From positions 1 through 58,491 of IMG/VR virus record IMGVR_UViG_3300027659_000039: 58,491 nt of DNA; one strand, written 5' to 3'. A program made the translations under genes and the position numbers. The DNA is from a virus. Every line of letters starts with the position of its first letter. Position 1 is the first letter of the stretch. Under the pieces are notes generated by a model. That model had not been told where the DNA came from, searched no databases, and saw only the letters and a list, made by a program, of their open reading frames with translations. Positions 5,945 through 33,701 of this stretch are shown piece after piece.

Positions 5945-5951
5945 AACAAGA

Positions 5952-5959
5952 TATTTATC
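5952..5959 (-). promoter_or_regulatory. late promoter box for the nucleotidyltransferase gene
   Basis: GATAAATA on the minus strand, predicted start at 5946, two bases before the ATG at 5944. One base separates it from the divergent plus-strand box at 5961-5968. Confidence 0.55.
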
Positions 5960-5960
5960 A

Positions 5961-5968
5961 GTTAAATA
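5961..5968 (+). promoter_or_regulatory. late promoter box, leaderless arrangement, for the AlgH-like gene
   Basis: GTTAAATA ending six bases before the ATG at 5974, so predicted transcription starts on the A of the start codon. Confidence 0.55.
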
Positions 5969-5973
5969 CTACT

Positions 5974-6543
5974 ATGACCACAGAAAACTATAATGGACAC
6001 CTAATTGTTGCACAGCCTAAATGTATTAGTAATTTTTTTAATAAAAGTACCATATTAGTTGCTGTACACGCACACAACGGTGCCTGGGGTGTTATCACTA
6101 ATCGAGTGTTTAATAGGATGGAATCCGGCTTGGGCGTTATAATGAACCAGATTGGTATAGAATTTGACAATGTAGGTGATCACCCATTATATGTTGGCGG
6201 TCCTTTAGAAACTAACAGAATAAATGTTATTCACAGTTTAGATTGGGCAGGACCTAGCACAACAACAGTAACAGATCATATTGGAATAACCAGCGACCTG
6301 TCTGTGTTGGCCGCTATTGCAGGGCACCGAGGCCCTGAATATTTTAGGGCATGTGTAGGTATTTGCCGTTGGGGAGAAGGACAATTGGAGGGAGAAATGA
6401 GAGGTCTCCCTCCTTGGCTACCCGAGCATCGTTGGCTTCATGCTCCGGCCACAATGTCCAATGTATTTGACTTTACCGAACAGTTCCAATGGCAAAATGC
6501 CATTGTTGACGCGGCTAAAGAAACTACCAAAGAGTGGCTTTAA
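5974..6543 (+). CDS. YqgE/AlgH-family protein
   Basis: 189 residues matching the YqgE/AlgH (UPF0301) family along its length: GHLIVAQPK near the N-terminus, then ILVAVHAHNGAWGVITNR, YVGGPL, and later GICRWGEGQLEGEM, each in the family's usual order. Cellular members are about 180-190 residues, so it looks full length. Their biochemical role is poorly defined. The gene sits between a nucleotidyltransferase gene and the gp41 helicase gene and has a late box with no leader. It shares the TTAA stop (6540-6543) with gp41. A host-regulation role is inference. Confidence 0.85.
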   Translation: MTTENYNGHLIVAQPKCISNFFNKSTILVAVHAHNGAWGVITNRVFNRMESGLGVIMNQIGIEFDNVGDHPLYVGGPLETNRINVIHSLDWAGPSTTTVTDHIGITSDLSVLAAIAGHRGPEYFRACVGICRWGEGQLEGEMRGLPPWLPEHRWLHAPATMSNVFDFTEQFQWQNAIVDAAKETTKEWL

Positions 6544-7994
6544 TCTTTCTCAGAGTTTAGGCTTGCAAGCATTGTACGAATCTTAGCACTATCGGCAGTA
6601 CCTCGAATTTTTCCTATATTAATGCCCTGCGTGGGATCTGCAATTTCTCCAGTCTCGTGATCTACTGCATTGTTAACAGTACTTGTTTTCTTTAGATTTG
6701 CATAGATACTGCTAGTTTTTCCACCACCACTTTGAGTATAACTTCCCTGACTTTCTTCTTCACCTAGATCGGTAATTCTCAGTGTTTCCACGTTAAATTC
6801 TAGATCTACTTTTTGCCCAACACCACTCGAACTACGTGTCTTCATAAACTGAATCTGATAGCGTCCACGTTCTTTCATAGCACGGCTTGTAAAGATACCG
6901 ATGACATTATCTGCTGTCATAATCTTACTCAACCCGCCGCTAATATGACTGTGATCAAACTCGATTTCTTCAACAGCACTACGATTTAACTGTGACGCGG
7001 TAACTGTAATACATTGTGTCTCCATAGCCAAATTTCGAATCTCTTCTGACACATATTTGTCTTTTACAAACAAATCGCTGGGCGAGACCTTCACTGATAA
7101 AGGCATCATCAAATCCAGGTAATCTATTAAAATAACGTCTGGTTTCTGGCCAGTTTTGACCTGATATTCCTTCAAATAGGCTCGAATATCGTTACAATTT
7201 TTTCCCGACGGCATATACTTAACTTGAAGGTTTCCTGCCTTCTTACCTAACATTTTAACCTTTAGTTCCACATCGTCGATATTCTTAAAAATGTCGCGGG
7301 TTGTAATACCTGTCATCATAGAATCCAAACGCATTGATACTAATCCTTCACTAAGTTCAAATGTTAGATATATTACATTTAACCCTTGTAGCGCCCAGTT
7401 TACTCCTAGATTTGCAAGGAACAAACTCTTGCCCCCACCAGACCCTGCACAGAAAATATTCAACTCACCTCGGTTAAATCCACCATATAGTTTCTTGTCA
7501 ATGCTGGGCCAACCAGTACTAATCTGCCCGTTCCCGTCTTTAAGTTTAGTCAATCGTGCTCTAGGATCTTCAAAGTAATCTGTACCCATATCCTTGTTTA
7601 GACTAATCTGGATAGCGTCTTTGATCAGCTTTTCAACCGGACCGTAGTCGCCATCTTCTAGCAAATCGCTTGATTGAATAATAGCACGTTCTAAGCCTTT
7701 ATGTCGACTAAAATTTTCAAACTCGTCCATTAACCAGTCATAGTTCTCTTTGGGCAAACTAACTGATTGGAGGTCCTTGCCGCAGTTAGCGTTGACAATA
7801 TGAATGTCTGGTATTACCCTATACTCATCTGTATATGTCTTGATAAATTTTGCTGTATCTTGTAATCGTTGGTCAAAATTTTCTGGGTCAAAAATGTTTG
7901 CACAACGCATAAATGTTTCAGCATCGCTAAGAAACATTTCAATGTATAATTTTTGTACGTTAAAATCGTAATTGGGTTTTTCTTTTTTATTCAT
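6540..7994 (-). CDS. gp41: replicative DNA helicase, gp41-like (DnaB family)
   Basis: 484 residues, close to T4 gp41 (475). The C-terminal RecA-like domain carries Walker A GSGGGKS (about 184-190) after GGFNRGELNIF, and a Walker B-type VILIDYLDLM near residue 290. The TASQLNR stretch is typical of DnaB/gp41 motif H3. It unwinds DNA at the fork on the lagging strand, as a hexamer with primase. Its start overlaps the end of the primase gene by eight bases, so the two are co-translated, as expected for a helicase-primase pair. Confidence 0.95.
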   Translation of the reverse strand: MNKKEKPNYDFNVQKLYIEMFLSDAETFMRCANIFDPENFDQRLQDTAKFIKTYTDEYRVIPDIHIVNANCGKDLQSVSLPKENYDWLMDEFENFSRHKGLERAIIQSSDLLEDGDYGPVEKLIKDAIQISLNKDMGTDYFEDPRARLTKLKDGNGQISTGWPSIDKKLYGGFNRGELNIFCAGSGGGKSLFLANLGVNWALQGLNVIYLTFELSEGLVSMRLDSMMTGITTRDIFKNIDDVELKVKMLGKKAGNLQVKYMPSGKNCNDIRAYLKEYQVKTGQKPDVILIDYLDLMMPLSVKVSPSDLFVKDKYVSEEIRNLAMETQCITVTASQLNRSAVEEIEFDHSHISGGLSKIMTADNVIGIFTSRAMKERGRYQIQFMKTRSSSGVGQKVDLEFNVETLRITDLGEEESQGSYTQSGGGKTSSIYANLKKTSTVNNAVDHETGEIADPTQGINIGKIRGTADSAKIRTMLASLNSEKD

Positions 7995-8970
7995 GTATTG
8001 CTTCTAGTTTTTTCTTTAATAGATTTATTTTTATCTCTCCGTGAACCTTATAGTGTAGTATTGTGGCTAACACATACAAACGTCCGTGTCTTTTTACCGA
8101 ATCAGCCACGTCTTTAATATCTTCACTCCACGGGGGCATACTAACAGACCAGTTGTTTTTTATTGCCGCTTTGAGCATTTTGGCGCCTGGCCTATCTCTA
8201 TCCGGTACTACTATAACTTCTCGTCCTAATGCGTTTAGACGCATAACTTGTACCTCATTAGGTTCATTATGTCCTATAGCACAGCCATCTATAGATATTG
8301 CATCAAATTGTCCTTCTACAACTATAACATACTTTCTGTCATTAGGTTGTGCAGTTAGGTTGAATACATATCCGGGTTGACTATGTGCTAGGTATTTTGG
8401 CTTACCTTCTGTTATTTTACGCCCTGTAAATCCCACTATTTTGTTATCTTGGTAGTATGGTATAATAACACGATCTCTATATCCGGGTTCGGGAGACCAC
8501 ATCCAATCATACCAACTTAGGTCCATTTTACGTCCTAATACATATTCTACAACTTTGATAAATTCTTCTTCAGGATCGGGTATGTCTGTGAACTTTTTAC
8601 AATCTTTTGGTAACTCAACTTCTTTAAGTTCGAAGTTAAATTCTTTTTTGTCAGTAGGTTGATCTTCTTGTTCTTTAAGTGCGGCTAGTGATAATTTTTG
8701 CACTTCGCTATCAGGTATGCCAAACCAGTTAAACAGAGTTTTGGTGTTCTTGCTTAACAGCTTACCCTTGCTCCATCCAGCTTTATATCCGCAATTAAAA
8801 CAATGGTATATAAACCCGTCAGCAGTTAGCATTATACCACCGCGCTTGCGATCATCACGTCGATCACCTCTATGATGACAACAGGGCGCATTGAAGCTGT
8901 CCCAACCGCTAGGAGTTTTCTTGCGATTTGGAGGTAAGACGGCTAGTAAGGCATTCTGTATGAGGCTCAT
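7987..8970 (-). CDS. gp61: DNA primase, gp61-like
   Basis: 327 residues (T4 gp61 is 342). A zinc-ribbon near the N-terminus uses CCHH at about 30-33 and CFNC at 57-60. A TOPRIM domain follows with VIVVEGQFDAISID near 213 and VVPDRDRPGA near 255, the latter giving the metal-binding DxD. It makes RNA primers for lagging-strand synthesis together with gp41, whose gene overlaps its 3' end. No strong Shine-Dalgarno is visible upstream. Confidence 0.93.
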   Translation of the reverse strand: MSLIQNALLAVLPPNRKKTPSGWDSFNAPCCHHRGDRRDDRKRGGIMLTADGFIYHCFNCGYKAGWSKGKLLSKNTKTLFNWFGIPDSEVQKLSLAALKEQEDQPTDKKEFNFELKEVELPKDCKKFTDIPDPEEEFIKVVEYVLGRKMDLSWYDWMWSPEPGYRDRVIIPYYQDNKIVGFTGRKITEGKPKYLAHSQPGYVFNLTAQPNDRKYVIVVEGQFDAISIDGCAIGHNEPNEVQVMRLNALGREVIVVPDRDRPGAKMLKAAIKNNWSVSMPPWSEDIKDVADSVKRHGRLYVLATILHYKVHGEIKINLLKKKLEAIHE

Positions 8971-8979
8971 ACAGTTAGT

Positions 8980-9819
8980 TTAACTTCTATACAGGAGTTT
9001 GTCAAATGTTCCGGCGTAGGCAGTATCGTTATTCTGCTGTGTAATTGGGTTTTTACTAGGAATGTATCTAATTCTAACATTCGAAAAGACACCGTTAAAG
9101 TTAACATAATCTACGCCAGTATACCCTGTATAACTTTTGGTAGATAATGTAGCATAGTTGCTAAAACTACCCGGACTATTTTCCAGTGTACCTTCTACAA
9201 TTACTTGTCCTTTGTATCCGGATAGATAGAAGGCCATTGTATGTAGGGCTGAGTTAGAATTGTATTCTGGTTGTGCTTTTAGATTGCCGCTATAGTATTC
9301 ATACTGTTGTGCTTCGAGGTCATAGTTATATTGTGGCTGGAACGATGTAACCTCAGTACTAGATTGTAGCACAGGACTGATATCTTCTAATAGTTCTAAA
9401 GTACCGCTAATTCCATAATAGGTATTAGAATAGGCTAGATCATAGGTACCAACATCGTTTAATTTTTTGATGCTAAACTTGTAAAACCCCTTATCTAAAT
9501 CTAACGTATCACTCTCAGATAAGGTAAGTAAACCAAGTCCCCTAGTACTAGTGGTTGCTCCATTATCTAGGATTTCTATAGATTTTTCTACCAGTTGTCT
9601 GCGGTTAGTTGCGTCAAACATGCTAAACACAAAAGTGCTAGTCGAAACGGGTAACAATTTTTGATCACTGTTTTTGAATTGAAATTGTATCTTATTTTGC
9701 AATCCCTTTTGTATTTTTAACTCGCGCTGGTACATAATATTATAGGTCCTTGTATTTTGATCCAAATCCAATATTACGGTGAATAAATTGGTGTATAAAT
9801 AGATTGGGCACTTTTGCAT
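8980..9819 (-). CDS. T4-like conserved structural-type protein
   Basis: 279 residues, rich in Tyr, Ser and Thr with a beta-sandwich-like pattern. Segments such as DLDQNTRTYNIMYQRELKIQ and IQFQFKNSDQK recall a protein conserved in marine T4-like phages and annotated there only as hypothetical or structural. I know no function. The start at 9819 lies one base beyond the predicted start of a late promoter. It is followed by the primase gene after ten bases, an odd mix of late and replication genes on one strand. Confidence 0.7.
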   Translation of the reverse strand: MQKCPIYLYTNLFTVILDLDQNTRTYNIMYQRELKIQKGLQNKIQFQFKNSDQKLLPVSTSTFVFSMFDATNRRQLVEKSIEILDNGATTSTRGLGLLTLSESDTLDLDKGFYKFSIKKLNDVGTYDLAYSNTYYGISGTLELLEDISPVLQSSTEVTSFQPQYNYDLEAQQYEYYSGNLKAQPEYNSNSALHTMAFYLSGYKGQVIVEGTLENSPGSFSNYATLSTKSYTGYTGVDYVNFNGVFSNVRIRYIPSKNPITQQNNDTAYAGTFDKLLYRS

Positions 9820-9825
9820 AATGTG

Positions 9826-9833
9826 TATTTATT
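9826..9833 (-). promoter_or_regulatory. late promoter box for the gene ending at 8980
   Basis: AATAAATA on the minus strand; predicted start 9820, giving a one-base leader before the ATG at 9819. Confidence 0.55.
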
Positions 9834-9842
9834 TTTTAAACG

Positions 9843-10226
9843 ATGGTTACAAAAAACAGCTTTCTAAACGATTTTCCTTTTATAACATGTATCAAATCTA
9901 ATGATATTGAATATGTAGGAATTGTCATTAATTTCGACGATTACGTCACCAGTATATATGATCTTGGATCTATTAAAACAGATGACGAACGCAAACACTT
10001 TCTAAATCTGGGGGAAAGTTGGTGGTGGGAAAGTAATCGCAAAATCCCTATTAATATTTTCTTAAAGGTTGAAATGCTGATGTTTAAACCATGCATTAAA
10101 ACCTTTAATAGAAAAGATGTAGAGATAGTATTTGGACCAACTGTAAATCTTGGCGATATAGCTGAAAAAAGAATTAAACGTAAGAGCATACAGCTGATTA
10201 GAAGTACTAAGAAAACCCGTAACTAA
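9843..10226 (+). CDS. hypothetical protein
   Basis: 127 residues with a beta-rich N-terminal half (FITCIKSNDIEYVGIVINF) and a basic C-terminus (KRIKRKSIQLIRSTKKTR). The middle holds an aromatic cluster (ESWWWES). No family recognised. The pattern could suit a small nucleic-acid or polymerase-binding protein, as inference only. It runs against its neighbours, and its last 20 bases overlap the convergent Pol III alpha-like gene. Confidence 0.65.
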   Translation: MVTKNSFLNDFPFITCIKSNDIEYVGIVINFDDYVTSIYDLGSIKTDDERKHFLNLGESWWWESNRKIPINIFLKVEMLMFKPCIKTFNRKDVEIVFGPTVNLGDIAEKRIKRKSIQLIRSTKKTRN

Positions 10227-10788
10227 TCTTTTCACAAATAAAATTCATCTGTACAACAATCGCTAGTGCATACGCGGTTGCATGACTTTTCTTAAAAAAG
10301 TATTCATCATTCTCTGGCCTGGTCCATACCTCTGCCATAACCGTAGGCCATTCTTGCCCAATTAGATAACGCTTTGCAGGTCGAATCATTGCTAGTACTG
10401 CGGCTAACTGTTCTACACTCCTTGGTTTCATTTCTTTTAGGATAGACCCGTGTCCGTTTACGTGAAATAGTAAGTTGCTGAAATCAGTTTGCTCTAGTAG
10501 ATCCCATAATGGTTCTTGATTCATTAATTGAATTAACTGTTCTTCATTACGTATGTCTTTGTACACGCCTGCATTTAAAAAATCTATTTTAAAGTAACCT
10601 CGATCCTCTGCGGCTTTGTAATCAATTGTGCTTAATCCTGTTAGTGGATTGTACGGTACAGAAGTACAATATACTCCAGAATTGTGTTTTTTAAAAGCTC
10701 CATTATCGTCTTTCATAGACGCAGGTATATGATCAATAATCTCGAGTATTGTTGTTCTATCTGCAAAATCGATGTCAATATCGGGCAT
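10207..10788 (-). CDS. miniature DNA polymerase III alpha-like protein
   Basis: Only 193 residues, yet carrying in order several core motifs of bacterial DnaE/PolC: PDIDIDF at 2-8 (the PDxDxDF site with two catalytic aspartates), HNSGVYCTSV at 35-44 (the HxAGVVIS region), YFKIDFL at 65-71 (the K-x-DFLGL site of the third aspartate), FHVNGHGSILKEMKP at 108-122 (the FQLES..M..LL...P region), VLAMIRPA at 131-138 (the ALYRPGP region) and FFKKSHATAYAL at 164-175 (the FNKSHxxAYxL motif). The PHP, beta-binding and OB domains are absent; bacterial alpha exceeds 1000 residues. It is probably not a processive polymerase and may be a regulator or specialised transferase. Overlaps the upstream gene by one base (TAATG). 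Confidence 0.8.
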   Translation of the reverse strand: MPDIDIDFADRTTILEIIDHIPASMKDDNGAFKKHNSGVYCTSVPYNPLTGLSTIDYKAAEDRGYFKIDFLNAGVYKDIRNEEQLIQLMNQEPLWDLLEQTDFSNLLFHVNGHGSILKEMKPRSVEQLAAVLAMIRPAKRYLIGQEWPTVMAEVWTRPENDEYFFKKSHATAYALAIVVQMNFICEKISYGFS

Positions 10789-11174
10789 TATAATTCTCCA
10801 CTTTCTGCTAATTTCAATATAAGGCTATAATGTTCGTAGGCCTTCTTCACTGCCGGGTAGTTGTCTCGTAATCTTTTTTCTTTATACTTTTGTTCCATCA
10901 TAACTTCAAACATTTGATAATGGTGTGCCCCATTTTGTTTCATATTGTTAAACACTTGATCTTCAAATTCTTTAATACGTTCTAACTCACTTAGCGGTAT
11001 CTCTATCGTGTACAGTGGTTCGGTTTCATAATTAAGGCGGGGGTCTTGAATTAGATTATAATCATCGGGATCGCTAAAATACTGACGGTTGATAGGTCTA
11101 TATCTTGCAAATCTTTTATTGGTATTAACAACAGTGATATTATGTTTTTGGCAAAATACTTTCATATTATTCAT
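10788..11174 (-). CDS. hypothetical protein, partner of the Pol III-like gene
   Basis: 128 residues: a basic N-terminal third (VVNTNKRFARYRPINRQYF) and a helical charged C-terminal part. No recognised domain. It is translationally coupled to the Pol III alpha-like gene through TAATG, so the two products may act together. An alternative ATG at 11165 would shorten it by three residues. Function unknown. Confidence 0.65.
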   Translation of the reverse strand: MNNMKVFCQKHNITVVNTNKRFARYRPINRQYFSDPDDYNLIQDPRLNYETEPLYTIEIPLSELERIKEFEDQVFNNMKQNGAHHYQMFEVMMEQKYKEKRLRDNYPAVKKAYEHYSLILKLAESGEL

Positions 11175-11823: not shown

Positions 11824-11824
11824 G

Positions 11825-13712: not shown

Positions 13713-13714
13713 AC

Positions 13715-19816: not shown

Positions 19817-22030
19817 TTATTTTGCCAAACCTGCAAGTTTTATAATGTTAGAAAACTCATCATCTTCTCTCATTGGTTTTGCTGGTTGTATAGCAGGTGG
19901 TGCCGGTGTAGCAGGTGTTGCCGGCGCTACTCTGATAGCATTACCAGGTTCTATAGTTGTAACTTTCCCTACAGATTTTGAAGAAACACCTTCTGGATCA
20001 CCGCTTGGTGCGGTAACATTTGGCTGTCCAGGTTTTGGAGCATCTGCTGTCCAAACGCCGCCTTGAATTGACCCTTCGCTTTGTCCGGAAAGTTTTGCAA
20101 CAAATTTCTCTGCTAACTTGCCTGCTTGGTCACCAAGTTCTTTTCTTACATGAATAATAACACCCTCTTCACCTTTTGGAAACGGTCCAAGCCCTTGCTC
20201 TTTATGATTCCTGTTATAGAAAGATTTTACCAGTTCAGCAATCTTTTTAACATTGGGCCCGATTGGTAGTCTTTTATTATTCTTTGAAAGAATAGTATCT
20301 TCATTTTCTTCATCTGGTCTAGATTCATACATGCCAACTTCATCTACAACCTTTTCCATATGTTGTAGTTCGCTTAGTGTATCAGCAAGAAAATCTTCGT
20401 CATAACTTAGTAGGTAACGAATCTCTTTATGATCCATACCTAATTTCATCATGGCGCCGCCGATCATTTTGATAAGCTGTTGTTCATTACGCGGTTCATA
20501 TCTTGCACCTTTATCAAACAGATAACGAGCAACTTTATAACTTGTACGGTCCTCTGCATCTTCACTTACTGGTTGTCCAACAGGAACCTGTGTTGGTTGT
20601 ACTAGACCAAATTCTTGGGCAGCTTCTGGATCTTCTTTTGCTAACCATTCACCTACAGGGTCTGATAGGGGAGTATTTGGGTCAATAGCGGCTTTGCCTT
20701 CGATTAGTTTTTGCAATTCTTCATCGCTGATGCCTATACCTTCTAGAGCTTCGATTGCGGCGGTGCCGTCAACTCCTAAGGTTGTTCCTTGGTCTAATAG
20801 ATCTTTAAGAGCCATTAGTGTATCTGGTTCAATTCTTCCTTCTACTATTGCATCAGCCCAGTTGGTAAATTTTGTAAAATAATTTTCTTTTACATTAGTA
20901 TCGCATGAACACTTGCTTTCCCACATGCCACATTCGGTACATTTGCTCTCGTCGACGTCGTCCCAACGTTTATCGTCAGCATTGTCATCTGGATGTTCTG
21001 GCTTGTCGGCCGGGCCTTCTTTAACATAATCTTCTAGGTCAACAGTTCCTGCTTCTTGCATAATGCTGTGTATTAATGGAAAGTATTGTGCTAGGTCTTC
21101 TTTAAAACTACTGATGGTAAACTTTGATTTGTAGTCTTCCATAGTAGCCTGGTCCATTTCCATAGTTGGAGACATTGCTGGCTGGAATGATTCAGACCAA
21201 GATTCGTAATGATGTTGCTTGCTTAATGAATTTAATTGACTGCGTAATGATTCTAATTTCATTCCTGCACGGTCAGCAATTTCATTTACTTCTTGGTTCA
21301 TACCGTCGTGATTACTAACATGGCGTCTAAATGCTGTTAGTTGCGCTATTTGTTCACTCATGTTAACAATAGAACCACCTAGATCGTCATATGGGCGACC
21401 GCCATTAGACACATGTCGTTGCATTGCCTTAGCGCCTGCAACATGAATGAATGGGTATTTAAATCTTTCGCCCTCTGCATTTTCGATGTATAACGCTTTA
21501 ATATTACCAGCTCTACTTCTAGCACCGAAACTTTCGTCTTCAATACTGTTGTGATGCTTGGCAATTAATTTTGTTTTTTCTAGTACACGGTAACTAGTTT
21601 TTTTACCGCCTTGAAATTTTATAGATTCACTCATATTCATATTTTCTTCCTTAGAGCCCTTCGAAGCTAGAAATTGGAAATCATCTTTGTTAAGATTACT
21701 CTTTGTGATATCCCTAGTGTCAAAACGCAATAGTCTACGTTTAGCAAAACTACGCATTTCTTTTAAAAAGTCATACCATACGTGGTGTGTATTATCGTCA
21801 GCACTTTCTAAAATACTTTTGCTATAGAATAATTTTAATGTTCCTAATTCGTTTATGCTGATACTAACTCTTCCCAAGTTATGGTCTTCATTAACAAAGT
21901 CAAAATCAAAGAATCTAGCCTGTCTAGGATCCATAGTTACGCCACCGTTTTCGTCACCCATTTCCAAATTCTGGAAACGACTGCGGATTTTGTCAAAAAC
22001 GTCCTGGCTGATAATCTCAATAGTCTTCAT
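19817..22030 (-). CDS. large conserved virion-type protein, unknown function
   Basis: 737 residues. The N-terminal ~115 residues (RQARFFDFDFVNEDHNLG, later FLKEMRSFAKRRLLRFDTRD) form a conserved module I have seen next to terminase genes in environmental T4-like phages. The middle is acidic and includes a Cys cluster (CTECGMWESKCSC, about residues 370-382) that could bind zinc. A later segment (ARYLFDKGARYEPRNEQQL) is helical, then a Pro/Ala-rich linker leads to EDDEFSNIIKLAGLAK at the very end. It is read from a late box with no leader. It is probably virion-associated; role unknown. Confidence 0.75.
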   Translation of the reverse strand: MKTIEIISQDVFDKIRSRFQNLEMGDENGGVTMDPRQARFFDFDFVNEDHNLGRVSISINELGTLKLFYSKSILESADDNTHHVWYDFLKEMRSFAKRRLLRFDTRDITKSNLNKDDFQFLASKGSKEENMNMSESIKFQGGKKTSYRVLEKTKLIAKHHNSIEDESFGARSRAGNIKALYIENAEGERFKYPFIHVAGAKAMQRHVSNGGRPYDDLGGSIVNMSEQIAQLTAFRRHVSNHDGMNQEVNEIADRAGMKLESLRSQLNSLSKQHHYESWSESFQPAMSPTMEMDQATMEDYKSKFTISSFKEDLAQYFPLIHSIMQEAGTVDLEDYVKEGPADKPEHPDDNADDKRWDDVDESKCTECGMWESKCSCDTNVKENYFTKFTNWADAIVEGRIEPDTLMALKDLLDQGTTLGVDGTAAIEALEGIGISDEELQKLIEGKAAIDPNTPLSDPVGEWLAKEDPEAAQEFGLVQPTQVPVGQPVSEDAEDRTSYKVARYLFDKGARYEPRNEQQLIKMIGGAMMKLGMDHKEIRYLLSYDEDFLADTLSELQHMEKVVDEVGMYESRPDEENEDTILSKNNKRLPIGPNVKKIAELVKSFYNRNHKEQGLGPFPKGEEGVIIHVRKELGDQAGKLAEKFVAKLSGQSEGSIQGGVWTADAPKPGQPNVTAPSGDPEGVSSKSVGKVTTIEPGNAIRVAPATPATPAPPAIQPAKPMREDDEFSNIIKLAGLAK

Positions 22031-22035: not shown

Positions 22036-22043
22036 TATTTATT
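22036..22043 (-). promoter_or_regulatory. late promoter box, leaderless arrangement, for the gene at 19817-22030
   Basis: AATAAATA on the minus strand, ending six bases before the ATG at 22030, so predicted transcription starts on the start codon. It lies between this gene and the terminase stop at 22042. Confidence 0.65.
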
Positions 22044-23631
22044 AAAAACTGCTGATGTAGATCGGCATAGGCATTTCGTAGTCCTCTAAACGGGCGTCTT
22101 CGACCATCTTATTATATACTATAGGATCCCAGTCTCCTAGCATCATAATCATGCGTATAGCTAATAACATAGCAGATACAAGATCGTCACTTTCTTCGTT
22201 TTTTCCTTTAAATGTAATGCCATGCGCAACAAATGTCTTTAATTCTGATATTAAACTTTTACTCGAAACAGTTAATTTGTTCTGTTCGACAAGTTGTTTT
22301 AGCTTGGCGCAAGCTGAAATTTTAGACTGATTTGTTGTGTTAAACCCTCTACGGAATCTGCGAACGTGTCCTTTTTTAATAGGTTCACTTAAGAACATCC
22401 CGGGTATGCTTTCTTCGCCCATTTCATTAATAGACACCAGGGCGGCTTCGCCCACTGTGTTATTTTCTACTGAATAGTATATACTGGCCGGAAATCCTTG
22501 ATTCATACATTGTTCTTCGATGTACTTACAAATATCCCGTAAGATCTTAACCTGTTGCTGAATAGGAGTTAGATTGTTTTGCCATTCTCCTACTTGTTTT
22601 AAACTAGGAATTTCTATAACTTCAATGCCGGAATAGTTTCCCCCCGTGCCTAAACTTGGGTCGTGGGCAACAATATAGGTACATGCTGGGTTTATTTTTC
22701 CATACCATCGTACTTGCCCCATTTTGTAAACTGGTTCAATACCTTCCATATTTGCTAGGGTAATACTGTTAATCAGTGTTTCGTCAAAGATTAAGAATTC
22801 ACATTCGTGTTCACGACGGAAACGTTCTTCGCCAATCCTACCTTTTTCTTCATCTGCCCACTTTTGATCTCTATCAGGGTGTTCAGACCAGTGTGCTTTA
22901 AACGGAAAGAACCCGTTACGTCCTACTATTTGTTCATTGCCAAACTCGTCAAAGCGTTTATTGGCCTCGTTCCAAATCATAGCAAATTGATCTTCATCTG
23001 AATTTGGTGTACTTGTAATAATAGCCTTACCACCAGTTGCTAGTGTAGGACTAATAGATGTCCAGAATTCTGTAGCAATGTTTGGCGGGACAAACGCAAA
23101 CTCGTCAGCGTATAGCAATGATAGTGACATACCACGACCAGTAGTTTCTGTAGTTGTCTGCGCCACAATACGTGACCCGTTGTCAAATTCTATACTTTCT
23201 TTATTATAACTTGTGACACCACATCGTATATGATCTGGACATAATTCGTATGCGTACCTAATACGATTCATAATTTCTCGAGCACCTGTATACTTGTGTG
23301 CGGCAATTAGAATAGTCGAATCCGGAATAAACATGGCAAACCATAACAGGTATCCTGCCGCTGTGGTAGTCTTGCCTGTTTGACGTGGAAGTAAGTTTAC
23401 ATTAAATCGATGGGTATGATAACTGTCAACTAACCGTTTTTGATACTCAAATGGTTGGTATAATAACTTACCTCTAGTAGGATGTTGTATATGAAAGAAA
23501 TTGTTTAGGAAGTAATGGGGGCCGTTAACTTGGTCCATACACCCTGCAAGATCCTGTATGTCCTTTTCAGTAAACCGTTGTGTACTGTGTGCTGTTTTTA
23601 CCAGCTTGCCGTCTAAGTTTTTGCTTCCCAT
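22042..23631 (-). CDS. gp17: terminase large subunit, gp17-like
   Basis: 529 residues (T4 gp17 610). Walker A LLPRQTGKTT (about 80-89) and Walker B LLYADEFAF (172-180) give the packaging ATPase. The C-terminal nuclease has an early acidic motif in YIVAHDPSLGTGGNYS (near 312) and further acidic residues near the end (NEESDDLVSA). It cuts concatemers and pumps DNA into the prohead. It is shorter than T4 gp17 mainly at the two ends. It is read from a late box with no leader, just after a strong terminator. Confidence 0.96.
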   Translation of the reverse strand: MGSKNLDGKLVKTAHSTQRFTEKDIQDLAGCMDQVNGPHYFLNNFFHIQHPTRGKLLYQPFEYQKRLVDSYHTHRFNVNLLPRQTGKTTTAAGYLLWFAMFIPDSTILIAAHKYTGAREIMNRIRYAYELCPDHIRCGVTSYNKESIEFDNGSRIVAQTTTETTGRGMSLSLLYADEFAFVPPNIATEFWTSISPTLATGGKAIITSTPNSDEDQFAMIWNEANKRFDEFGNEQIVGRNGFFPFKAHWSEHPDRDQKWADEEKGRIGEERFRREHECEFLIFDETLINSITLANMEGIEPVYKMGQVRWYGKINPACTYIVAHDPSLGTGGNYSGIEVIEIPSLKQVGEWQNNLTPIQQQVKILRDICKYIEEQCMNQGFPASIYYSVENNTVGEAALVSINEMGEESIPGMFLSEPIKKGHVRRFRRGFNTTNQSKISACAKLKQLVEQNKLTVSSKSLISELKTFVAHGITFKGKNEESDDLVSAMLLAIRMIMMLGDWDPIVYNKMVEDARLEDYEMPMPIYISSF

Positions 23632-23636: not shown

Positions 23637-23644
23637 TATTTAAT
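23637..23644 (-). promoter_or_regulatory. late promoter box, leaderless arrangement, for the terminase gene
   Basis: ATTAAATA on the minus strand, ending six bases before the ATG at 23631. It sits directly after the T run of the terminator at 23644-23673, so the upstream transcript ends and a new one begins within a few bases. Confidence 0.6.
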
Positions 23645-24716: not shown

Positions 24717-24718
24717 AA

Positions 24719-26628: not shown

Positions 26629-26631
26629 ATA

Positions 26632-27774
26632 TTAATTAACTGGTACGCCCTTGCCGTTTGCACTAATAGTACTGACGGCTTGTGCTCCTCTTTTTAGAAC
26701 ATTAACTGCTCCTGGGTTAACAGAATTTGCAATACCGCTAGTAAAATTTTCCACACTGGTAGTAAGATCAGCTCTACCGCCAGTGGCTACACTATTCAGC
26801 CCTCCAGCAAGAATACTATATCCTTCTGCCTTGATGCTCTGAGCAGTAATCTTGCTAACATTTTTAGCCAGGTTGGCGGCCGAGATACCTGCTTTTAAAT
26901 AATCTAAAGGACTAGAGTTTTCATCTAGGCTGCTTATTTCATCAAACAAATCACCTGCACCTGTAATGGCTCCAAAAATTCCGCCTCCTCCACCTACTGC
27001 TAATGGACTAGGTGTTGTATCATAATGATTATCTTTGAAATTAACATTAGCCTTCTTGAGCTTGCCTGAAGTGTAATTAACTGATTCGTATGCAACAGTC
27101 ATTCGATTCTCTGACATCCTACTTCCTTGAGTTTGGTCAAGACTACTACTATCCCATCCAGTAATAATTGGATTAACTAGGGTAGTGCAATAATATTGTT
27201 GCCTATTCATCTGATAAATTTCTATCTGATCAAAGAATCTAGATTCGTGTGCTGTGTTAAAACCGTATCTTTTTTGTTCTGTATTAAATTTAGTATCTGC
27301 AAACGCAGGGTCTCTCGAGACTCCTGAAAACTGATTTGATGTTCCTTTATAACGACTATCTGCGTAGTAATATTGGTAATATAATTCCCATAGCTTTGAT
27401 GTAGCATTACCTTGATCATCGTGCCAGCTAATTGAGATAGGTGCATATGATATTTTTGTCTGCACAATAGTTTTTCTATTATACTGATTAAGAACTTCAT
27501 TGCCAATTGTAAATTTTGGCCTGTCCACACTCTTAGCTAGGATCCCCACAAACGGCATTGATCTTTTAGCCCAGGCCGCACCGCCCGGAAGAGCGCTTAT
27601 CTGGGAATCAACATCTGTGTTTATTTTAACCACAACATAATACATCCACCCTGCTTTTGGGGCATAGTCGTAGAATTTATCATTTCTATATAGTCGAGTC
27701 GCATGTTGAGCGTTACGAAGATATCCTTCGGAACCAAACACGCTGTCCATGAAATTAGTTAGTAAATTGGCCAT
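26632..27774 (-). CDS. tail-tube-related or baseplate protein (gp54/gp48-type candidate)
   Basis: 380 residues. A segment PFVGILAKSVDRPKFTIGNE, then YNRKTIVQTKISYAPISISW, carries the pattern of phage tube-fold proteins (VDRP.F followed by a long beta hairpin). The C-terminal ~130 residues are Gly/Ala/Ser-rich and hydrophobic. In T4, gp54 and gp48 resemble the tube and start tube assembly; this gene lies beside gp19 and fits such a role. The exact counterpart is uncertain. It is read from a late box with no leader. Confidence 0.6.
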   Translation of the reverse strand: MANLLTNFMDSVFGSEGYLRNAQHATRLYRNDKFYDYAPKAGWMYYVVVKINTDVDSQISALPGGAAWAKRSMPFVGILAKSVDRPKFTIGNEVLNQYNRKTIVQTKISYAPISISWHDDQGNATSKLWELYYQYYYADSRYKGTSNQFSGVSRDPAFADTKFNTEQKRYGFNTAHESRFFDQIEIYQMNRQQYYCTTLVNPIITGWDSSSLDQTQGSRMSENRMTVAYESVNYTSGKLKKANVNFKDNHYDTTPSPLAVGGGGGIFGAITGAGDLFDEISSLDENSSPLDYLKAGISAANLAKNVSKITAQSIKAEGYSILAGGLNSVATGGRADLTTSVENFTSGIANSVNPGAVNVLKRGAQAVSTISANGKGVPVN

Positions 27775-27779
27775 ATAGA

Positions 27780-27787
27780 TATTTATC
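27780..27787 (-). promoter_or_regulatory. late promoter box, leaderless arrangement, for the gene at 26632-27774
   Basis: GATAAATA on the minus strand, ending six bases before the ATG at 27774. It lies just after the terminator for the gp18-gp19 message. Confidence 0.65.
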
Positions 27788-27791
27788 TTAT

Positions 27792-27819: not shown

Positions 27820-27833
27820 GATTACTGTAAATT

Positions 27834-28460: not shown

Positions 28461-28481
28461 TTACTGCTCCTTATTCCTTAT

Positions 28482-28489
28482 TATTTACC
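28482..28489 (-). promoter_or_regulatory. late promoter box for gene 19
   Basis: GGTAAATA on the minus strand; predicted start 28476 leaves a 16-base leader carrying AAGGAG before the ATG at 28460. Confidence 0.55.
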
Positions 28490-28493
28490 TTAA

Positions 28494-31400
28494 TTATAGA
28501 CCAGCTTTGATCTCGCCAGTATTCTTTAAACGCAATGGAATGTAGATAAATTCCACGGCTTTAACTGGCTCGATAGCTACATCTACCCATAGTTCACTGC
28601 GGTCGATGCGTGTTTTAGTATTGTTACTATCATCGCATACCACAATAAAGTCATATAGGGCACGTTGTCCTACTAGTTCTAACATTAGACTTTCTACTGC
28701 ATTCTTAATTTCGTTTCTTGTAGTTCTGTCGTTTGGTTCAAATAAGAACGGACGACTTAGAACATCCAATTGTCTACGTAAGTATGCTACTAATCTAGAA
28801 ACATTAATTCTGTCCAAACTGCTAGTGCCTGATGCTCTTGTGTAATTACCAAAGTTAACAATACCAACACCATTTAATGTTGCAATAGGATTGATCTTAA
28901 CTGTAGACATTACATCTCTAATATTGTTTGGCAGTGCAGTTGTCTTAAATTCGCCGTTGTCGATATAACCAACGCTGGTTGCATTAGATACATTACCACG
29001 CTTAATTCCACTAGGTGCAAACCACTGATAGCTCTTCTGATCGCTGACTGCAATAGTACGTAACATCATGTGGCTTGGTGGAACAACAATATTGTTTCCC
29101 GAGTTGTCGTTAGTATAACCACTTGGATAGAACATGGCCATGTACTCATTATAACTAACTCCTCCCTCGTCACCGTTATCCACAGCTCCTATGGTGTTGT
29201 TACCCCAATTAGCAAGCTCGGTTCCGGTTGGTTGTAAACGGAATGGTGTATCACCGATAACAAACGCTGTATAACTACGATCTTCGTTAAATGCTGACAT
29301 ATTAGCAATTAGTTCAGGGTAGCCTGGGCAAGCAATTAGGTTAAAAACTAATGTGTCAGTATCTCTAACTTGTGAATTAGTATCAACTAATGCTTTTAGT
29401 TTTGCAACAACGTGCGATCTTTGTGAATGACGACCAAATGAACCCGACCCATTGGCATTGTTAGGGCTTACAGTTACCCAACGATCTGGATTGTATGGGG
29501 TTGTGTCGCCGCCACCGTCCATTGGATCGTTAAGATAACGTTGATTGTAGCCATCATTTTCATTAACATCGATGTGATTAACTTTGAATTGTTTAATGTT
29601 AAATCCGCTACGGCGGGTGTTCCACAAACGCATTCCTTGTGGGTATAATGCAGGATCAGGTGCGTCCGGATCTAAGTAATCACTGTTCAGCAATTCTATA
29701 ATTGTAGCAGGATCTGTATCTGGGCCAGCAGTACTCCAACGAGCATCAGCATATAGCCATCCAGTTGGGCTTTCTTGGTCAGTTACATCTTGTTTAATCC
29801 ATTTTAATAATGAACCATTATAGACATATACATTTAGACCATATTCATCGCTAACTGAAGTGTCTATCCAAATATCACCATCAACTAGGTCATAATTACC
29901 GCTATGGCCGCCGACTTGTTGTGTAGGTTGTGTAGCACTTAAAATGGGACCGTATGAATCAGCAGTAGTATATTCAGATGCGTAACCTACCCATGTTGTT
30001 CCGTTGTGTACTAGAATGTCGATATCGTGTGTTGCCGCACTATACCACAATGTGCCGTCTGCTGGGTCTGTATATGGTGCTGTGCTCTTAGCTTCATAAC
30101 TCAATGGTTTCCAATTTGAGCCAATTAGCTCAAATGTATCATATTCTCCTGAAGCAAATAAGTTTTGTGTACCAGTTTGATTCACTAGATCATACTCTGT
30201 AAAGCCTAATGTGGATAATATGTTAGCAGAACCAGTTCCGTCAGTTAGATAAATTTCTCCACCTAGTGCATGGTTGATACTTAATGTACCGTTAGAATTT
30301 AGTTTTGCACTAATATTTTCAAATCCTGCGCCGCTGATTGCAGTTACTATATCTGCACCATTAATATCGCCTGCGCCATTAGCTACAGTAATTGTGGCTG
30401 TATTTTGGCTAACGGCCGACCCAGCAACAGTTTCCCTCATGATAAAGTTTTTAGCACCAGCAACAGTAAATGTTGTAACATCTGCACTACCTGTGATCGT
30501 TGTAGGACTTGTACCGTTACGACGATATACTTTAAATGTTGCCAGTTTAGATGTAGCGGTTGTGCTACCCGTGCCATGATCAAAGTTGCTTTCTATAAAC
30601 AATGAACCAGAGGGTATGTTCTTACCACCCGCTACATCTAATGATTTAATTGCATCTGCACGACTAGGATAAATTGGTGCAGACAATGTTGCCCAAGAAT
30701 TAGTACTACCGTTATAACTTTTTACAGTCCAACTAGCACCTTGACTAGCCGCGGTTGTTTTAATATAAACTGAGCCAGTTGGGTTACCGTTTGCGGCATA
30801 TTGTGGGAACTGATAGTGAGGTTGGATACTTAATGCTACTGCGGAATAAGTTCCAGTAGTTAGTCCTAACGAACCAACTGCGTTTCCGGCAACAGCAACT
30901 ACGCCATTGGTACCGTTGGAACTTGCATTAATATCTGCATATAATTCTAATTTTCCTAAAGAATTAACTTTAGCACCAACACCTAAGTTACCTACAGTAT
31001 TGTTAATTGTAGTTGCAACAGCTGATGTCGATGTAGATCCGATTGTAACAGTTTGACCGTTAATTGTAAATGTAGATGCACCTACTACGGTTCCGAACCC
31101 GCTACTAACTGCAACAGGGTGGCTTGTTTGCCATACTGTGCTGTCAAATGTACTTGAACTAAATGTAGCTCTTAGATCAGTTCCGTAGCTACTACCAATT
31201 AGTACCCACTTGTTATTGTTATTTTTGTAATAGATGGCATTTGTATTGTCCATTGTGACAACAATAGCATACGACCCTTTTGTACCAATGCTTGCTTTTG
31301 GCACCATACTTCCGTCTGTATCAGCGTCAACATTTTCGTCATTAATAATAATAGGAGTTTTATTAACAAACACCTTATTAGTGGCATCCCATTCGCTAAT

Positions 31401-31838
31401 TCCAAATATACTAGAACTAGTATCAACCCAGTGCTGTCCGCTTATCGGTAACCCGGTTGGAGCACTTGTTTTAGCTTCTAACTGACTAAGATCAACATTT
31501 GCTCTAACAATATAAGCCTTTGAACTAACACCTAGTAAACTATATGCGGCTTGTAGACCGTATTCGTTTAATTCTCCACCGTGTACAGGATTACCACTTA
31601 CATCAGTATAAAATTTAGGTGTTCCAAACAAATCAGTTAGGTCCCGTTGACTAGTAACTGTATAAACTTGCCCTACATTGCCAGCTAGTGTGGCAGCGGC
31701 TGTGCCTGTTTTCGAGGCGTTGCTTTTATTTGCAGCGGTTGCTACAAAAATCATTGGTACGGTTCCAGGTGTTGCAGGTGTATAGAAACTTTCATCTATA
31801 ACAGATACTATCGTTCCTGGTGATTGTAATGTTGGCAT
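28494..31838 (-). CDS. gp18: tail sheath protein, gp18-like, enlarged
   Basis: 1114 residues, much longer than T4 gp18 (659). The N-terminal ~130 residues (SPGTIVSVIDES, SQRDLTDLFGTP, YIVRANVDLSQL) and the C-terminal ~370 residues (NLIACPGYPELIANMSAF, RPFLFEPNDRTTRNEI, SELWVDVAIEPVKAVEF) are the sheath core. Between them lies an inserted region of about 550 residues. It contains two related beta domains (one with TFTINGQTVTIGSTS, one with ADVTTFTVAGAKNF; each ends in a NSxGxL segment and LGLT/LGFT) and short modules with GTLWYS or GDIWID followed by a Trp. The insert probably decorates the outside of the sheath. A GGGAG site lies ahead of the ATG. Confidence 0.92.
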   Translation of the reverse strand: MPTLQSPGTIVSVIDESFYTPATPGTVPMIFVATAANKSNASKTGTAAATLAGNVGQVYTVTSQRDLTDLFGTPKFYTDVSGNPVHGGELNEYGLQAAYSLLGVSSKAYIVRANVDLSQLEAKTSAPTGLPISGQHWVDTSSSIFGISEWDATNKVFVNKTPIIINDENVDADTDGSMVPKASIGTKGSYAIVVTMDNTNAIYYKNNNNKWVLIGSSYGTDLRATFSSSTFDSTVWQTSHPVAVSSGFGTVVGASTFTINGQTVTIGSTSTSAVATTINNTVGNLGVGAKVNSLGKLELYADINASSNGTNGVVAVAGNAVGSLGLTTGTYSAVALSIQPHYQFPQYAANGNPTGSVYIKTTAASQGASWTVKSYNGSTNSWATLSAPIYPSRADAIKSLDVAGGKNIPSGSLFIESNFDHGTGSTTATSKLATFKVYRRNGTSPTTITGSADVTTFTVAGAKNFIMRETVAGSAVSQNTATITVANGAGDINGADIVTAISGAGFENISAKLNSNGTLSINHALGGEIYLTDGTGSANILSTLGFTEYDLVNQTGTQNLFASGEYDTFELIGSNWKPLSYEAKSTAPYTDPADGTLWYSAATHDIDILVHNGTTWVGYASEYTTADSYGPILSATQPTQQVGGHSGNYDLVDGDIWIDTSVSDEYGLNVYVYNGSLLKWIKQDVTDQESPTGWLYADARWSTAGPDTDPATIIELLNSDYLDPDAPDPALYPQGMRLWNTRRSGFNIKQFKVNHIDVNENDGYNQRYLNDPMDGGGDTTPYNPDRWVTVSPNNANGSGSFGRHSQRSHVVAKLKALVDTNSQVRDTDTLVFNLIACPGYPELIANMSAFNEDRSYTAFVIGDTPFRLQPTGTELANWGNNTIGAVDNGDEGGVSYNEYMAMFYPSGYTNDNSGNNIVVPPSHMMLRTIAVSDQKSYQWFAPSGIKRGNVSNATSVGYIDNGEFKTTALPNNIRDVMSTVKINPIATLNGVGIVNFGNYTRASGTSSLDRINVSRLVAYLRRQLDVLSRPFLFEPNDRTTRNEIKNAVESLMLELVGQRALYDFIVVCDDSNNTKTRIDRSELWVDVAIEPVKAVEFIYIPLRLKNTGEIKAGL

Positions 31839-31870
31839 TGTTAACTCTCCCTTAATGGATTTCTTAGCAG

Positions 31871-31878
31871 TATTTAGT
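31871..31878 (-). promoter_or_regulatory. late promoter box for gene 18
   Basis: ACTAAATA on the minus strand; predicted start 31865, a 27-base leader with AAGGGAGAG before the ATG at 31838. Confidence 0.5.
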
Positions 31879-31900
31879 GTATGACTGGAAAAAATTACGT

Positions 31901-31908
31901 GTTAAATA
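31901..31908 (+). promoter_or_regulatory. late promoter box for the zinc-rich HNH-like gene
   Basis: GTTAAATA; predicted start 31914, a 23-base leader with AAAAGGGC before the ATG at 31937. Confidence 0.45.
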
Positions 31909-31936
31909 CATGAGAAAAGGGCAATAAAAGGGCACT

Positions 31937-32272
31937 ATGCGAAAACTATGTCAAGTTTGTGATAAAAAACCTGTAGCGGTAAATTATATCAAAGAAGGCA
32001 GGACCTATTATAGGTCTAAATGCGATCATTGTGCTAGGGGACTAGGAGAAGGGATACCTAGATGGCAAGCGGCTGGCTATAAATTAAAAAATAAATGTGA
32101 TAAATGCGGGTACGCTGGAAAACATATTGAACAATTCAATGTTTATCATGTAGATGGCAATCTAGATAATTGCCGACCGTCTAATCTCAAGTCAGTTTGT
32201 GCCAATTGCCAACGGCTACTTCACGTGCTAGGCCTTCCCTGGAGGCAAGGGGATTTGACACCTGATCTTTAA
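31937..32272 (+). CDS. Cys-rich, HNH-like phage protein
   Basis: 111 residues with four CxxC pairs (Cys5/8, 29/32, 54/57, 88/91). The stretch YHVDGNLDN (70-78) followed by N83-L84 and a final Cys pair matches the HNH/His-Me finger layout (H-x-D-G-N, N-L, C-x-x-C). A small homing-type or structure-cutting endonuclease is likely, but the usual last histidine is replaced by Gln after the final Cys. It runs opposite to its neighbours and overlaps the 3' end of the dNMP kinase gene by 86 bases. Confidence 0.65.
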   Translation: MRKLCQVCDKKPVAVNYIKEGRTYYRSKCDHCARGLGEGIPRWQAAGYKLKNKCDKCGYAGKHIEQFNVYHVDGNLDNCRPSNLKSVCANCQRLLHVLGLPWRQGDLTPDL

Positions 32273-32885
32273 GGGCTTGAAACAATTCGTCTATAGTGCT
32301 ATCGTTAGGTATTAATGTATCAATGTCGCCACCTACCCAGGCAGTTTCACTAGCATGAATTTTAAGCGTTTCTAGTTTTCGTTGACTCAATGCCCAAGTT
32401 GCATTTCCGTTAGGACCGCTATTAAAGCTAACTGCGGCATCATACCAGTCTGGTTCAGGGCCTCGTTTAATACGAATAACTTTTCCGCCTGCGTTGTGTA
32501 TAGCCCTAATCTCATTAGGAAAGCGAACATCGCTAATAACAATGTTGTCGCTTGTTTTACGCATCTTATTTTCTACACTGGCAATCCATATATCATCGTG
32601 GAACCCATGACGACATACTTCTGTACCCCAATATTGTAGTACCCAGCGTGGTGTTAACGTAGGAATGTTTAATCGTTTTGCCCACCACGGATCTACTTGT
32701 TCACGCCATTCTCGGGCTTCTTTTGTTCGTCCTTCCAAGAGAACGCGGTCCCAACCAAATACGGCAGCAACCGCGTCTTTTAATGTATTAGCGAATGAAT
32801 CACGGCGGAATCCGTGAAAATTAACAAGATAGTCTGCGGCAGTATCTTTGCCGCTACCAATAAAACCTACAAAACCTATAATCAT
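32187..32885 (-). CDS. gp1: deoxynucleoside monophosphate kinase, gp1-like
   Basis: 232 residues from the ATG at 32885 (T4 gp1 241). P-loop GFIGSGKDTAADYL near the N-terminus; WWAKRLNIPTLTPRW and YWGTEVCRHGFHDDIW in the middle; VISDVRFPNEIRAI further on. Gp1 phosphorylates dNMPs, including modified ones in T4, for DNA synthesis. GGGAGA lies eight bases before the chosen ATG; a longer start at 32927 would run into the neck gene. Confidence 0.92.
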   Translation of the reverse strand: MIIGFVGFIGSGKDTAADYLVNFHGFRRDSFANTLKDAVAAVFGWDRVLLEGRTKEAREWREQVDPWWAKRLNIPTLTPRWVLQYWGTEVCRHGFHDDIWIASVENKMRKTSDNIVISDVRFPNEIRAIHNAGGKVIRIKRGPEPDWYDAAVSFNSGPNGNATWALSQRKLETLKIHASETAWVGGDIDTLIPNDSTIDELFQALKDQVSNPLASREGLAREVAVGNWHKLT

Positions 32886-32913
32886 AGCATCTCCCGGGAT
32901 ACTATATTTTATA

Positions 32914-33672
32914 TTAACCTCTAACAAAGGTCAATGGTTGTTGGTTATCGTAATTATTAATTAATTCCAATTCTAACTTTTCAATTTGGGCAGTGCCTTC
33001 TGCTTTTAAAGAGCCGCCGTTTAACTGTGTACCGCCTTGCGGGCTGGCAATTGTGGCAAATTTTTCACGTGCCTCGCCTAGTATAATTTTAGATTGTGCA
33101 ACTGCGTAATCTTTAAGCCAAATTCCTGCATACGTATCTTCGAATAGGTTAAAATCCGGTCGATAATTATATGCCCAGATTAGAACACTTTCTTGTCCAC
33201 GTGGACGTTGGCTAATTCTTAACTTTTTACTTGTAGGATTAAAATCAAAGTTAATATAACTACCAAACATTTTACCAACTTCTTTTTGGTAGCTGGCAAA
33301 CATAAAATATGTTGCTAGTCCACCAAGATTCGATGAACTCATTAGATATGTATTAGAATAGGCCAAATTAAATGGTTCAAACAACGTACCACCGTCGCCG
33401 CCACCCGTTCTAGATCCTATGCTACGTCGAAATACTTCTCTAACCTGCATAACTTCTTTTGGAAGGATATAGTCGTTTTTGTCATTTTCTAGTGTTAGAA
33501 AACTAAAACTTTCTTCTACGGCATTACTACTACGTTGTCGGTATTTTGCCAGTGCGCGATCAATTGCGGTATTATAGTGAATGGGGTCTAGTTCAATATC
33601 GACCATGCCATCACCTAACATTGTACGTATGTAAGTAACTATTTCTTGGCGGGTTTGTTCTGAATCAGTCAT
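32914..33672 (-). CDS. gp13: neck protein, gp13-like
   Basis: 252 residues (T4 gp13 309). The N-terminal pattern EIVTYIRTMLGDGMVDIELD, then AIDRALAKYRQRSSNAVEES, and LPKEVMQVREVFRR matches T4-type gp13, which with gp14 closes the head and joins the tail. The rest is beta/alpha with no further motif. It starts exactly at the predicted start of a late promoter, without a leader, and is divergent from the gp14-gp15 genes. Confidence 0.8.
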   Translation of the reverse strand: MTDSEQTRQEIVTYIRTMLGDGMVDIELDPIHYNTAIDRALAKYRQRSSNAVEESFSFLTLENDKNDYILPKEVMQVREVFRRSIGSRTGGGDGGTLFEPFNLAYSNTYLMSSSNLGGLATYFMFASYQKEVGKMFGSYINFDFNPTSKKLRISQRPRGQESVLIWAYNYRPDFNLFEDTYAGIWLKDYAVAQSKIILGEAREKFATIASPQGGTQLNGGSLKAEGTAQIEKLELELINNYDNQQPLTFVRG

Positions 33673-33677
33673 ATCAT

Positions 33678-33685
33678 TATTTACC
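33678..33685 (-). promoter_or_regulatory. late promoter box, leaderless arrangement, for gene 13
   Basis: GGTAAATA on the minus strand, ending six bases before the ATG at 33672. It abuts the plus-strand box at 33686-33693. Confidence 0.6.
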
Positions 33686-33693
33686 TATAAATA
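33686..33693 (+). promoter_or_regulatory. late promoter box for genes 14-15
   Basis: A perfect TATAAATA; predicted start 33699, a three-base leader before the ATG at 33702. It lies back to back with the gene 13 box. Confidence 0.7.
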
Positions 33694-33701
33694 CAACTAC
33701 T

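Follow-up and report, generated by a model that had tools for sequence, protein, structure and literature searches.

Two divergent gene pairs of a virus, each separated by a gap of exactly 29 bp that carries one late-promoter box per strand, are the subject of this work. They lie at positions 5945-5973 and 33673-33701 of a 58,491-base virus record (IMG/VR IMGVR_UViG_3300027659_000039, the whole of which is called the window below), which encodes T4-like virion and replication proteins, namely tail sheath, tail tube, large terminase, a gp13-like adaptor, a sheath stabilizer, an UvsX-like recombinase, a primase and a helicase. Our analysis makes it probable that each gap is a minimal bidirectional late promoter of the T4 type, which would be served by a gp55-type sigma factor and would give rise to two leaderless or nearly leaderless mRNAs. 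The gaps are real and conserved, and two fused units of promoter and start codon appear to explain them better than a footprint of fixed size.

Two compact divergent gaps with abutting late boxes

A preliminary description of this DNA had given both gaps as exactly 29 bp, with one late box per strand back to back, and recomputation returned the same coordinates. In the first gap, referred to as the AlgH pair, the minus-strand box (GATAAATA, 5952-5959) stands 7 nt before the ATG of a gene for a 225-amino-acid (aa) protein (5267-5944, minus strand) and the plus-strand box (GTTAAATA, 5961-5968) stands 5 nt before the ATG of a gene for a 189-aa AlgH-like (DUF179) protein (5974-6543, plus strand; E 6.5e-26), which results in a build of 7+8+1+8+5. 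The second gap, the neck pair, is built as 5+8+0+8+8: its minus-strand box (GGTAAATA, 33678-33685) is 5 nt away from the ATG of a 252-aa T4 gp13-like head-tail adaptor (32914-33672, minus strand; phrog_211, E 6e-33), Ad2 being the annotation of T4 gp13, and its plus-strand box (TATAAATA, 33686-33693) precedes by 8 nt, in a spacer ending in ACT, the ATG of a 401-aa virion structural (neck) protein (33702-34907, plus strand; phrog_11591, E 2.8e-76). The two promoters had been called identical, which is true of their length but neither of their build nor of their sequence, since the two 29-mers, in whichever orientation they are compared, share 14 of 29 positions. The full T4 consensus TATAAATA is found in only one of the four boxes, the motif common to all four being TAAATA. 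Inverted pairs of the form TATTTA-N4-6-TAAATA occur twice in the window, against a mean of 0.08 in shuffled sequences, and none of 100 shuffles reached two.

Conservation of the dual box in relatives

For the neck pair, relatives were retrieved with the neck protein as query (the 80 top-ranking loci of 593, which with the window make 81 rows); for the AlgH pair the query was an AlgH alignment (the 80 top-ranking loci of 178). Six contigs are common to the two sets by name. Dual boxes are present in 70 of the 81 neck rows, where the minus spacer is 5 nt in 70 of 70 and the plus spacer 6-8 nt in 62 and 20-21 nt in 8, the gaps measuring 27-30 bp in 59 rows and 39-67 bp in 11. At the AlgH pair the dual box is found in 69 of 80 loci, with gaps of exactly 29 bp in 41, 23-31 bp in 65 and 56-71 bp in 4. 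Spacers at both gaps are mostly 4-8 nt long in these relatives, leaving no room for a Shine-Dalgarno (SD) sequence between box and start codon, and where the leader is longer or extra DNA separates the boxes the gaps extend to 39-71 bp with the boxes kept. The earlier proposal that one small element serves two genes thus gains support from a dual box kept at both loci in dozens of relatives. Among the 11 neck rows lacking the dual box, no plus box was seen within 80 bp upstream in L019, L032, L037, L043 (a truncated locus), L052, L053, L054, L055 and L070, and no minus box in L038 and L044; the 11 AlgH loci lacking it comprise L136, which is truncated, L148, where no minus start was found, L149 and L150, where no ATG start was found, and the near-identical L167-L172 together with L185, which have no minus box.

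The inverted arrangement of the boxes, whose arms are mostly 7-11 bp apart centre to centre, is also what would be seen if the pair were an operator palindrome bound by a symmetric regulator controlling both genes, the match to a late box being secondary. We consider this very unlikely, because the distance between the boxes varies from -1 to 3 bp and in a few loci reaches 42 bp with the boxes kept, and because single boxes at the same spacing precede other virion genes.

The equal size of the gaps had been taken to suggest a constraint, such as the footprint of a pair of late initiation complexes or of a single shared one. This was assessed on the different gap sequences, gaps longer than 35 bp and L164 (minus spacer scored 1) being excluded. 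At the AlgH pair 29 bp is indeed the mode, with 27 of 40 sequences against a mean of 16.9 when the three parts of the gap are shuffled independently (p 0.0008, relatedness ignored), and the minus spacer and the distance between the boxes vary oppositely (covariance -0.22), both of which speak for a constraint on size. In addition, other divergent gaps of this length were recovered from relatives, as the 41 AlgH loci mentioned above and as dual-box gaps in L101, L105, L106 and L107 that also sum to 29. At the neck pair, however, 28 bp is commoner (21 of 40, against 15 of 40 for 29 bp), all lengths from 27 to 31 bp occur, the variants of 39-71 bp retain their boxes, and the opposite variation would also follow if indels were rarer than substitutions. 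Therefore, a fixed size rule of 29 bp is ruled out as stated, this length being a frequent value in a narrow band rather than a constant, and a footprint of either kind is in our view quite unlikely. A more economical description of the gap is the sum of two short spacings (5 and 7 nt, each give or take one), two boxes of 8 bp each and an interval between the boxes that is mostly 0-3 bp. The gap of L107 (1300-1316; 4+8+1+8+8) separates two open reading frames (ORFs) of about 390 aa without PHROG matches.

Two classes of leader behind the late box

In the window, 10 of 34 TAAATA sites are followed 5-8 nt on by an ATG opening an ORF of at least 80 aa and 0 of 34 have one 9-16 nt on. Random positions gave 0.43 such short-spaced ATGs on average and never more than 4 over 2,000 draws; among other hexamers of equal composition the short spacing was found in 21 of 1,289 cases. 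A broader survey of the window and 80 loci (1.02 Mb) scored 826 different box contexts, 405 of which have an ATG of an ORF of at least 80 aa within 40 nt of the box: 191 at 5-8 nt, 6 at 9-16 nt and most of the rest in a second rise at 17-35 nt. When the neck gap is set aside the 302 remaining sites divide into 5 at 0-4 nt, 90 at 5-8, 5 at 9-16, 73 at 17-25 and 129 at 26-39 nt. SD-like GGAG, AGGA or GAGG was seen in 0 of 90 sites at 5-8 nt, where the spacer is hardly able to hold one, in 0 of 5 at 9-16 nt, in 57 of 73 at 17-25 nt and in 65 of 129 at 26-39 nt. The short class does not stem from one family, as the modal spacer is 5-8 nt in 18 of 59 gene families and 9-15 nt in none. The nearly empty class of 9-16 nt is what would be expected if transcription began some 5-6 nt downstream of the box and if leaders were retained when they measure 0-3 nt or can accommodate an SD, but not when they fall in between.

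The bases and codons next to the short-spaced starts are consistent with such a start site. Where the spacer measures 5 nt, a T or C directly precedes the ATG in 63 of 63 sites other than the neck pair and in 40 of 40 different neck gaps, so that a +1 on the A of the ATG would follow a pyrimidine. Codons opening ORFs of at least 80 aa 5-8 nt after boxes other than those of the neck pair comprise 91 ATG, 8 ATT, 4 CTG, 2 GTG and 0 TTG; at random positions the same codon count yields more ATT (319) than ATG (173). In counts of box-N5-7-ATG versus box-N9-15-ATG over whole records, the large relatives G001 and G003 stand out from T4, PA5oct, RaK2 and most others, and Pelagibacter phage HTVC008M is also enriched.

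It could alternatively be argued that transcription starts further upstream, at promoters of neighbouring genes, and that the AU-rich box is a translation enhancer ahead of an ATG lacking an SD, since AU-rich sequence before ATGs can aid initiation of that kind. We regard this as unlikely: the same TAAATA stands 17-35 nt before SD-led genes, where an enhancer acting close to the ATG makes little sense, the near absence of the 9-16 nt class would be unexpected, and a simple consensus scan of both gap regions found 0 sigma-70-like sites in 5850-6080 and 33570-33810.

Start codon and leader state of the neck gene

The neck gene allows both leader states to be compared within one family, in 79 rows, the truncated L043 being excluded from the 81 together with L055, in which the matched start does not correspond to a start codon. 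All 64 short-spaced rows begin with ATG, as do the 4 rows that are neither short-spaced nor SD-led, and the 11 SD-led rows use ATT (7), TTG (2), GTG (1) and ATG (1). Leaderless mRNAs with a start other than AUG are inefficient in Escherichia coli, according to the review PMC9031893. The leader state changed 8 times on a quick tree, with at least 6 changes forced by well-supported branches. A probable ATT start of the neck gene behind a good Shine-Dalgarno was noted in L016, L031, L036, L042, L047, L051 and L070. The promoter region is separated from the neck gene by an HNH-type ORF in L032 and L070, where the neck gene has an SD; the inserted ORF of L032 (9270-9998) is homing-endonuclease-like, is inserted directly after the bidirectional late promoter and carries the short-spaced ATG. 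L038 and L044 show an ORF with the same kind of ending upstream, and there the neck gene retains its own short-spaced box.

Late transcription machinery

The gp55-type late sigma profile phrog_12791 matched all 3 large relatives (G001, G002 and G003) with E 5e-85 or better, matched strongly also in PA5oct and Atu_ph07 and weakly in T4, and had no match in two shorter relative fragments searched. This evidence comes from the records of relatives and makes it likely that a gp55-type late sigma serves this clade. The T4 late promoter is described as a TATA box of 8 bp positioned upstream of the start by about one helical turn (PMC2988020), and activation of late transcription by a clamp, which is outlined for T4 in PMC7892883, is here assumed by analogy.

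A dual late box was also observed close upstream of the gp55-type sigma gene itself, in L100 (G001), L102 (G002) and L104 (G003), where in L100 and L104 that gene is divergent from a gene for a virion protein. Between box and sigma gene L100 and L102 contain, by eye, a TTGAC/TAtAAT-like host promoter, an arrangement that suggests expression of the late sigma both early and late.

Proposed mechanism and points that weigh against it

From the boxes, their spacing and conservation, the bimodality, the start-codon pattern and the gp55 genes of relatives, all of them computed, we infer the following course of events. The two back-to-back TAAATA boxes would each act as a -10-like element that does not depend on a -35. 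Host RNA polymerase carrying a gp55-type late sigma of the phage would be able to open the DNA for transcription to either side, with a single complex at work at any moment. The boxes would be too near each other to be occupied together and, considering the footprint of RNA polymerase, two holoenzymes could hardly be accommodated on one gap. As each box ends 5-8 nt from an ATG, transcription would start on the A of that ATG or at most about 3 nt before it; both mRNAs would be leaderless or nearly so and would be translated in the leaderless manner. The near-constant gap size would then correspond to the smallest packing of two such units (5 + 8 + 0-3 + 8 + 7), with some further conservation. 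Genes whose products are probably needed in few copies (neck, terminase) would tend to the short-spaced form, and sheath, tube and capsid genes to longer leaders. Terminase and neck genes do have short spacers and sheath and tube genes long ones, and the major capsid gene was SD-led in all 5 of the 8 searched records in which it was matched.

Several observations weigh against this mechanism or restrict its reach. Many of the loci are near copies, which left 40 different short gap sequences (27-31 bp) for each pair. The raw count of TAAATA-N5-8-ATG in the window, a gene start not being required, is 11 against a shuffle mean of 6.6 and is not significant, 7 of 100 shuffles reaching 11, and the excess of short spacings is weak in G002 (29 matches in 3 slots versus 35 in 7, with 36 in 3 slots in the reversed control). 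The AlgH pair keeps the pyrimidine before the ATG less strictly, in 24 of 31 cases. On the neck side at spacer 7 the last three bases are A, C and T in 36, 35 and 35 of 36 sequences, a pattern which suggests that the transcript starts at that A, with a leader of 3 nt on that side rather than none. The link between leader and start codon of the neck gene is clear in the counts but not significant in a strict test, as start codon and leader agree in 4 of five tree-independent pairs and are opposed in none (sign test, p 0.125). Of 8 records searched for portal genes 5 gave a match, and in all 5 the gene lacks both a box and a clear SD; portal genes fit neither class, and the short spacers of terminase and neck genes fit a low-dose role, with few families behind this link to copy number. 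Finally, PHROG profiles of gp33 and gp45, searched in seven records, matched in T4 and KVP40 only and in none of G001-G003, PA5oct and Atu_ph07, where divergent versions may be missed; this is why clamp activation is carried over from T4 as an assumption.

It can further be speculated that late promoter and start codon were fused so that this late gene class is made best in ribosome states tolerating weak initiation, in which case the amounts of low-copy parts would be governed by changes that IF3 or the ribosomes undergo late in infection, and a single bidirectional element would supply two such parts together. This proposal, to which we give little credence, is based on the two forms in which the same neck gene occurs, a leaderless one with AUG and an SD-led one with AUU, UUG or GUG. 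AUU starts are disfavoured by IF3 (infC). Leaderless mRNAs are disfavoured by IF3 as well, according to a title cited in the review PMC9031893.

Should 5' ends confirm the bidirectional leaderless promoter, a group of giant T4-like phages would differ from T4 in making many late proteins from mRNAs whose 5' end coincides with the start codon. They would also offer a large natural set for asking when genes switch between leaderless and Shine-Dalgarno initiation, since the neck gene has changed its leader state about 8 times on the quick tree, mostly along with its start codon. The two-way promoter would show how small such an element can be, and a late box 5-8 nt before an ATG would be useful in annotation to mark the start codons of phage genes lacking an SD.

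Comparison with known systems

T4 late promoters resemble those of the window in the 8-bp TATAAATA-type box before virion genes and in the presence of late boxes for both strands in the divergent gaps 4/53 and 26/51 (47 and 50 bp). Those two gaps, however, have SD leaders, and their boxes face each other at 4/53 and overlap at 26/51 instead of abutting. In the 50 kb of T4 examined a single ATG of an ORF of at least 50 aa follows a box by 5-8 nt, inside uvsW, and none does so at an annotated gene start, many late boxes being located 17-35 nt before an SD-led ATG. In Agrobacterium phage Atu_ph07 the homologous neck gene is again divergent behind abutting boxes, TATTTAAC and GGTAAATA, but the gap is 68 bp, the spacers are longer on both sides and an SD-like sequence is visible on the minus side. 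The comparison of T4 and Atu_ph07 with the clade indicates that the back-to-back late promoter is more widespread than its predicted leaderless form. PA5oct has a box and AGGAG before the neck gene, with no divergent neighbour there. HTVC008M (L122 and L123) resembles the window in having eight boxes 5-8 nt before ATGs, 8 of 8 at annotated starts of coding sequences and among them that of a gp13-like gene in a 32-bp divergent gap, where it differs in that only the plus box was seen; this phage is possibly a second lineage with leaderless late mRNAs. The stretch of P-SSM2 offered no more than 6 sites, of which one is at 5 nt, a number that does not allow a judgement.

Bidirectional bacterial promoters with symmetric -10 elements initiate divergently from inverted -10-like elements. 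They are a property of host promoters, in contrast to the conserved late-box pair described here, which would serve two phage genes. Known leaderless mRNAs, such as that of lambda cI and others, have their AUG at or near the 5' end and no SD (PMC9031893), and phage transcripts in general are often leaderless as stated in the AR9 paper (PMC5312081); the difference from the cI type is that a class of phage late promoters is here predicted to yield leaderless mRNAs systematically, with two from each element. No description of leaderless late mRNAs in T4-like phages was found at the level of titles and abstract openings, a weak negative given that subscription journals were mostly outside reach.

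Other late boxes and neighbouring genes

Besides the four gap sides, with their spacers of 7, 5, 5 and 8 nt, six single-box genes of the window have a spacer of 5-6 nt. On the plus strand, ATTAAATA at 4013-4020 stands 6 nt before the ATG of 4027-4284 and TATAAATA at 4280-4287 stands 5 nt before that of 4293-4730. On the minus strand, AATAAATA precedes two virion-structural-like genes, at 9826-9833 (6 nt before the ATG of 8980-9819) and at 22036-22043 (5 nt before that of 19817-22030); ATTAAATA at 23637-23644 is 5 nt from the ATG of the large terminase gene (22042-23631), whose family has a spacer of 5 in 15 of 15 members scored; and GATAAATA at 27780-27787 is 5 nt from that of the tail-tube-like gene 26632-27774, in whose family 30 of 35 members scored have this spacer. 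Two further divergent gaps emerged among the genes compared. The one at 9820-9842, of 23 bp, carries a late box on the minus strand only. A third divergent gap with boxes on both strands, absent from the preliminary description, spans 98 bp (31839-31936) between the tail sheath gene and a weak HNH-like ORF of 111 aa, with boxes at 31871-31878 (minus) and 31901-31908 (plus) and spacers of 32 and 28 nt.

With regard to the genes flanking the two 29-bp gaps, the 401-aa neck gene is directly upstream of a tail sheath stabilizer-like gene, and the named relatives of its product belong to giant phages including Atu_ph07, Phosso and PA5oct, at 34-37% identity. A scan of bacterial genomes aimed at identifying the host yielded no relative. 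The 225-aa protein matches phrog_36119, of unknown function, and weakly a nucleotidyltransferase domain; no relatives were found with its gene as query, and the AlgH-like gene alone retrieved one relative only, whereas the AlgH alignment succeeded. A phage-borne AlgH-like (DUF179) protein is kept in viral contigs behind the same promoter type, and in L106 the partner of the AlgH-like gene is again phrog_36119. The G+C content of the window is about 0.49 at positions 1-4000 and 0.48-0.49 at 48001-52000, and 0.35-0.44 over most of the rest.

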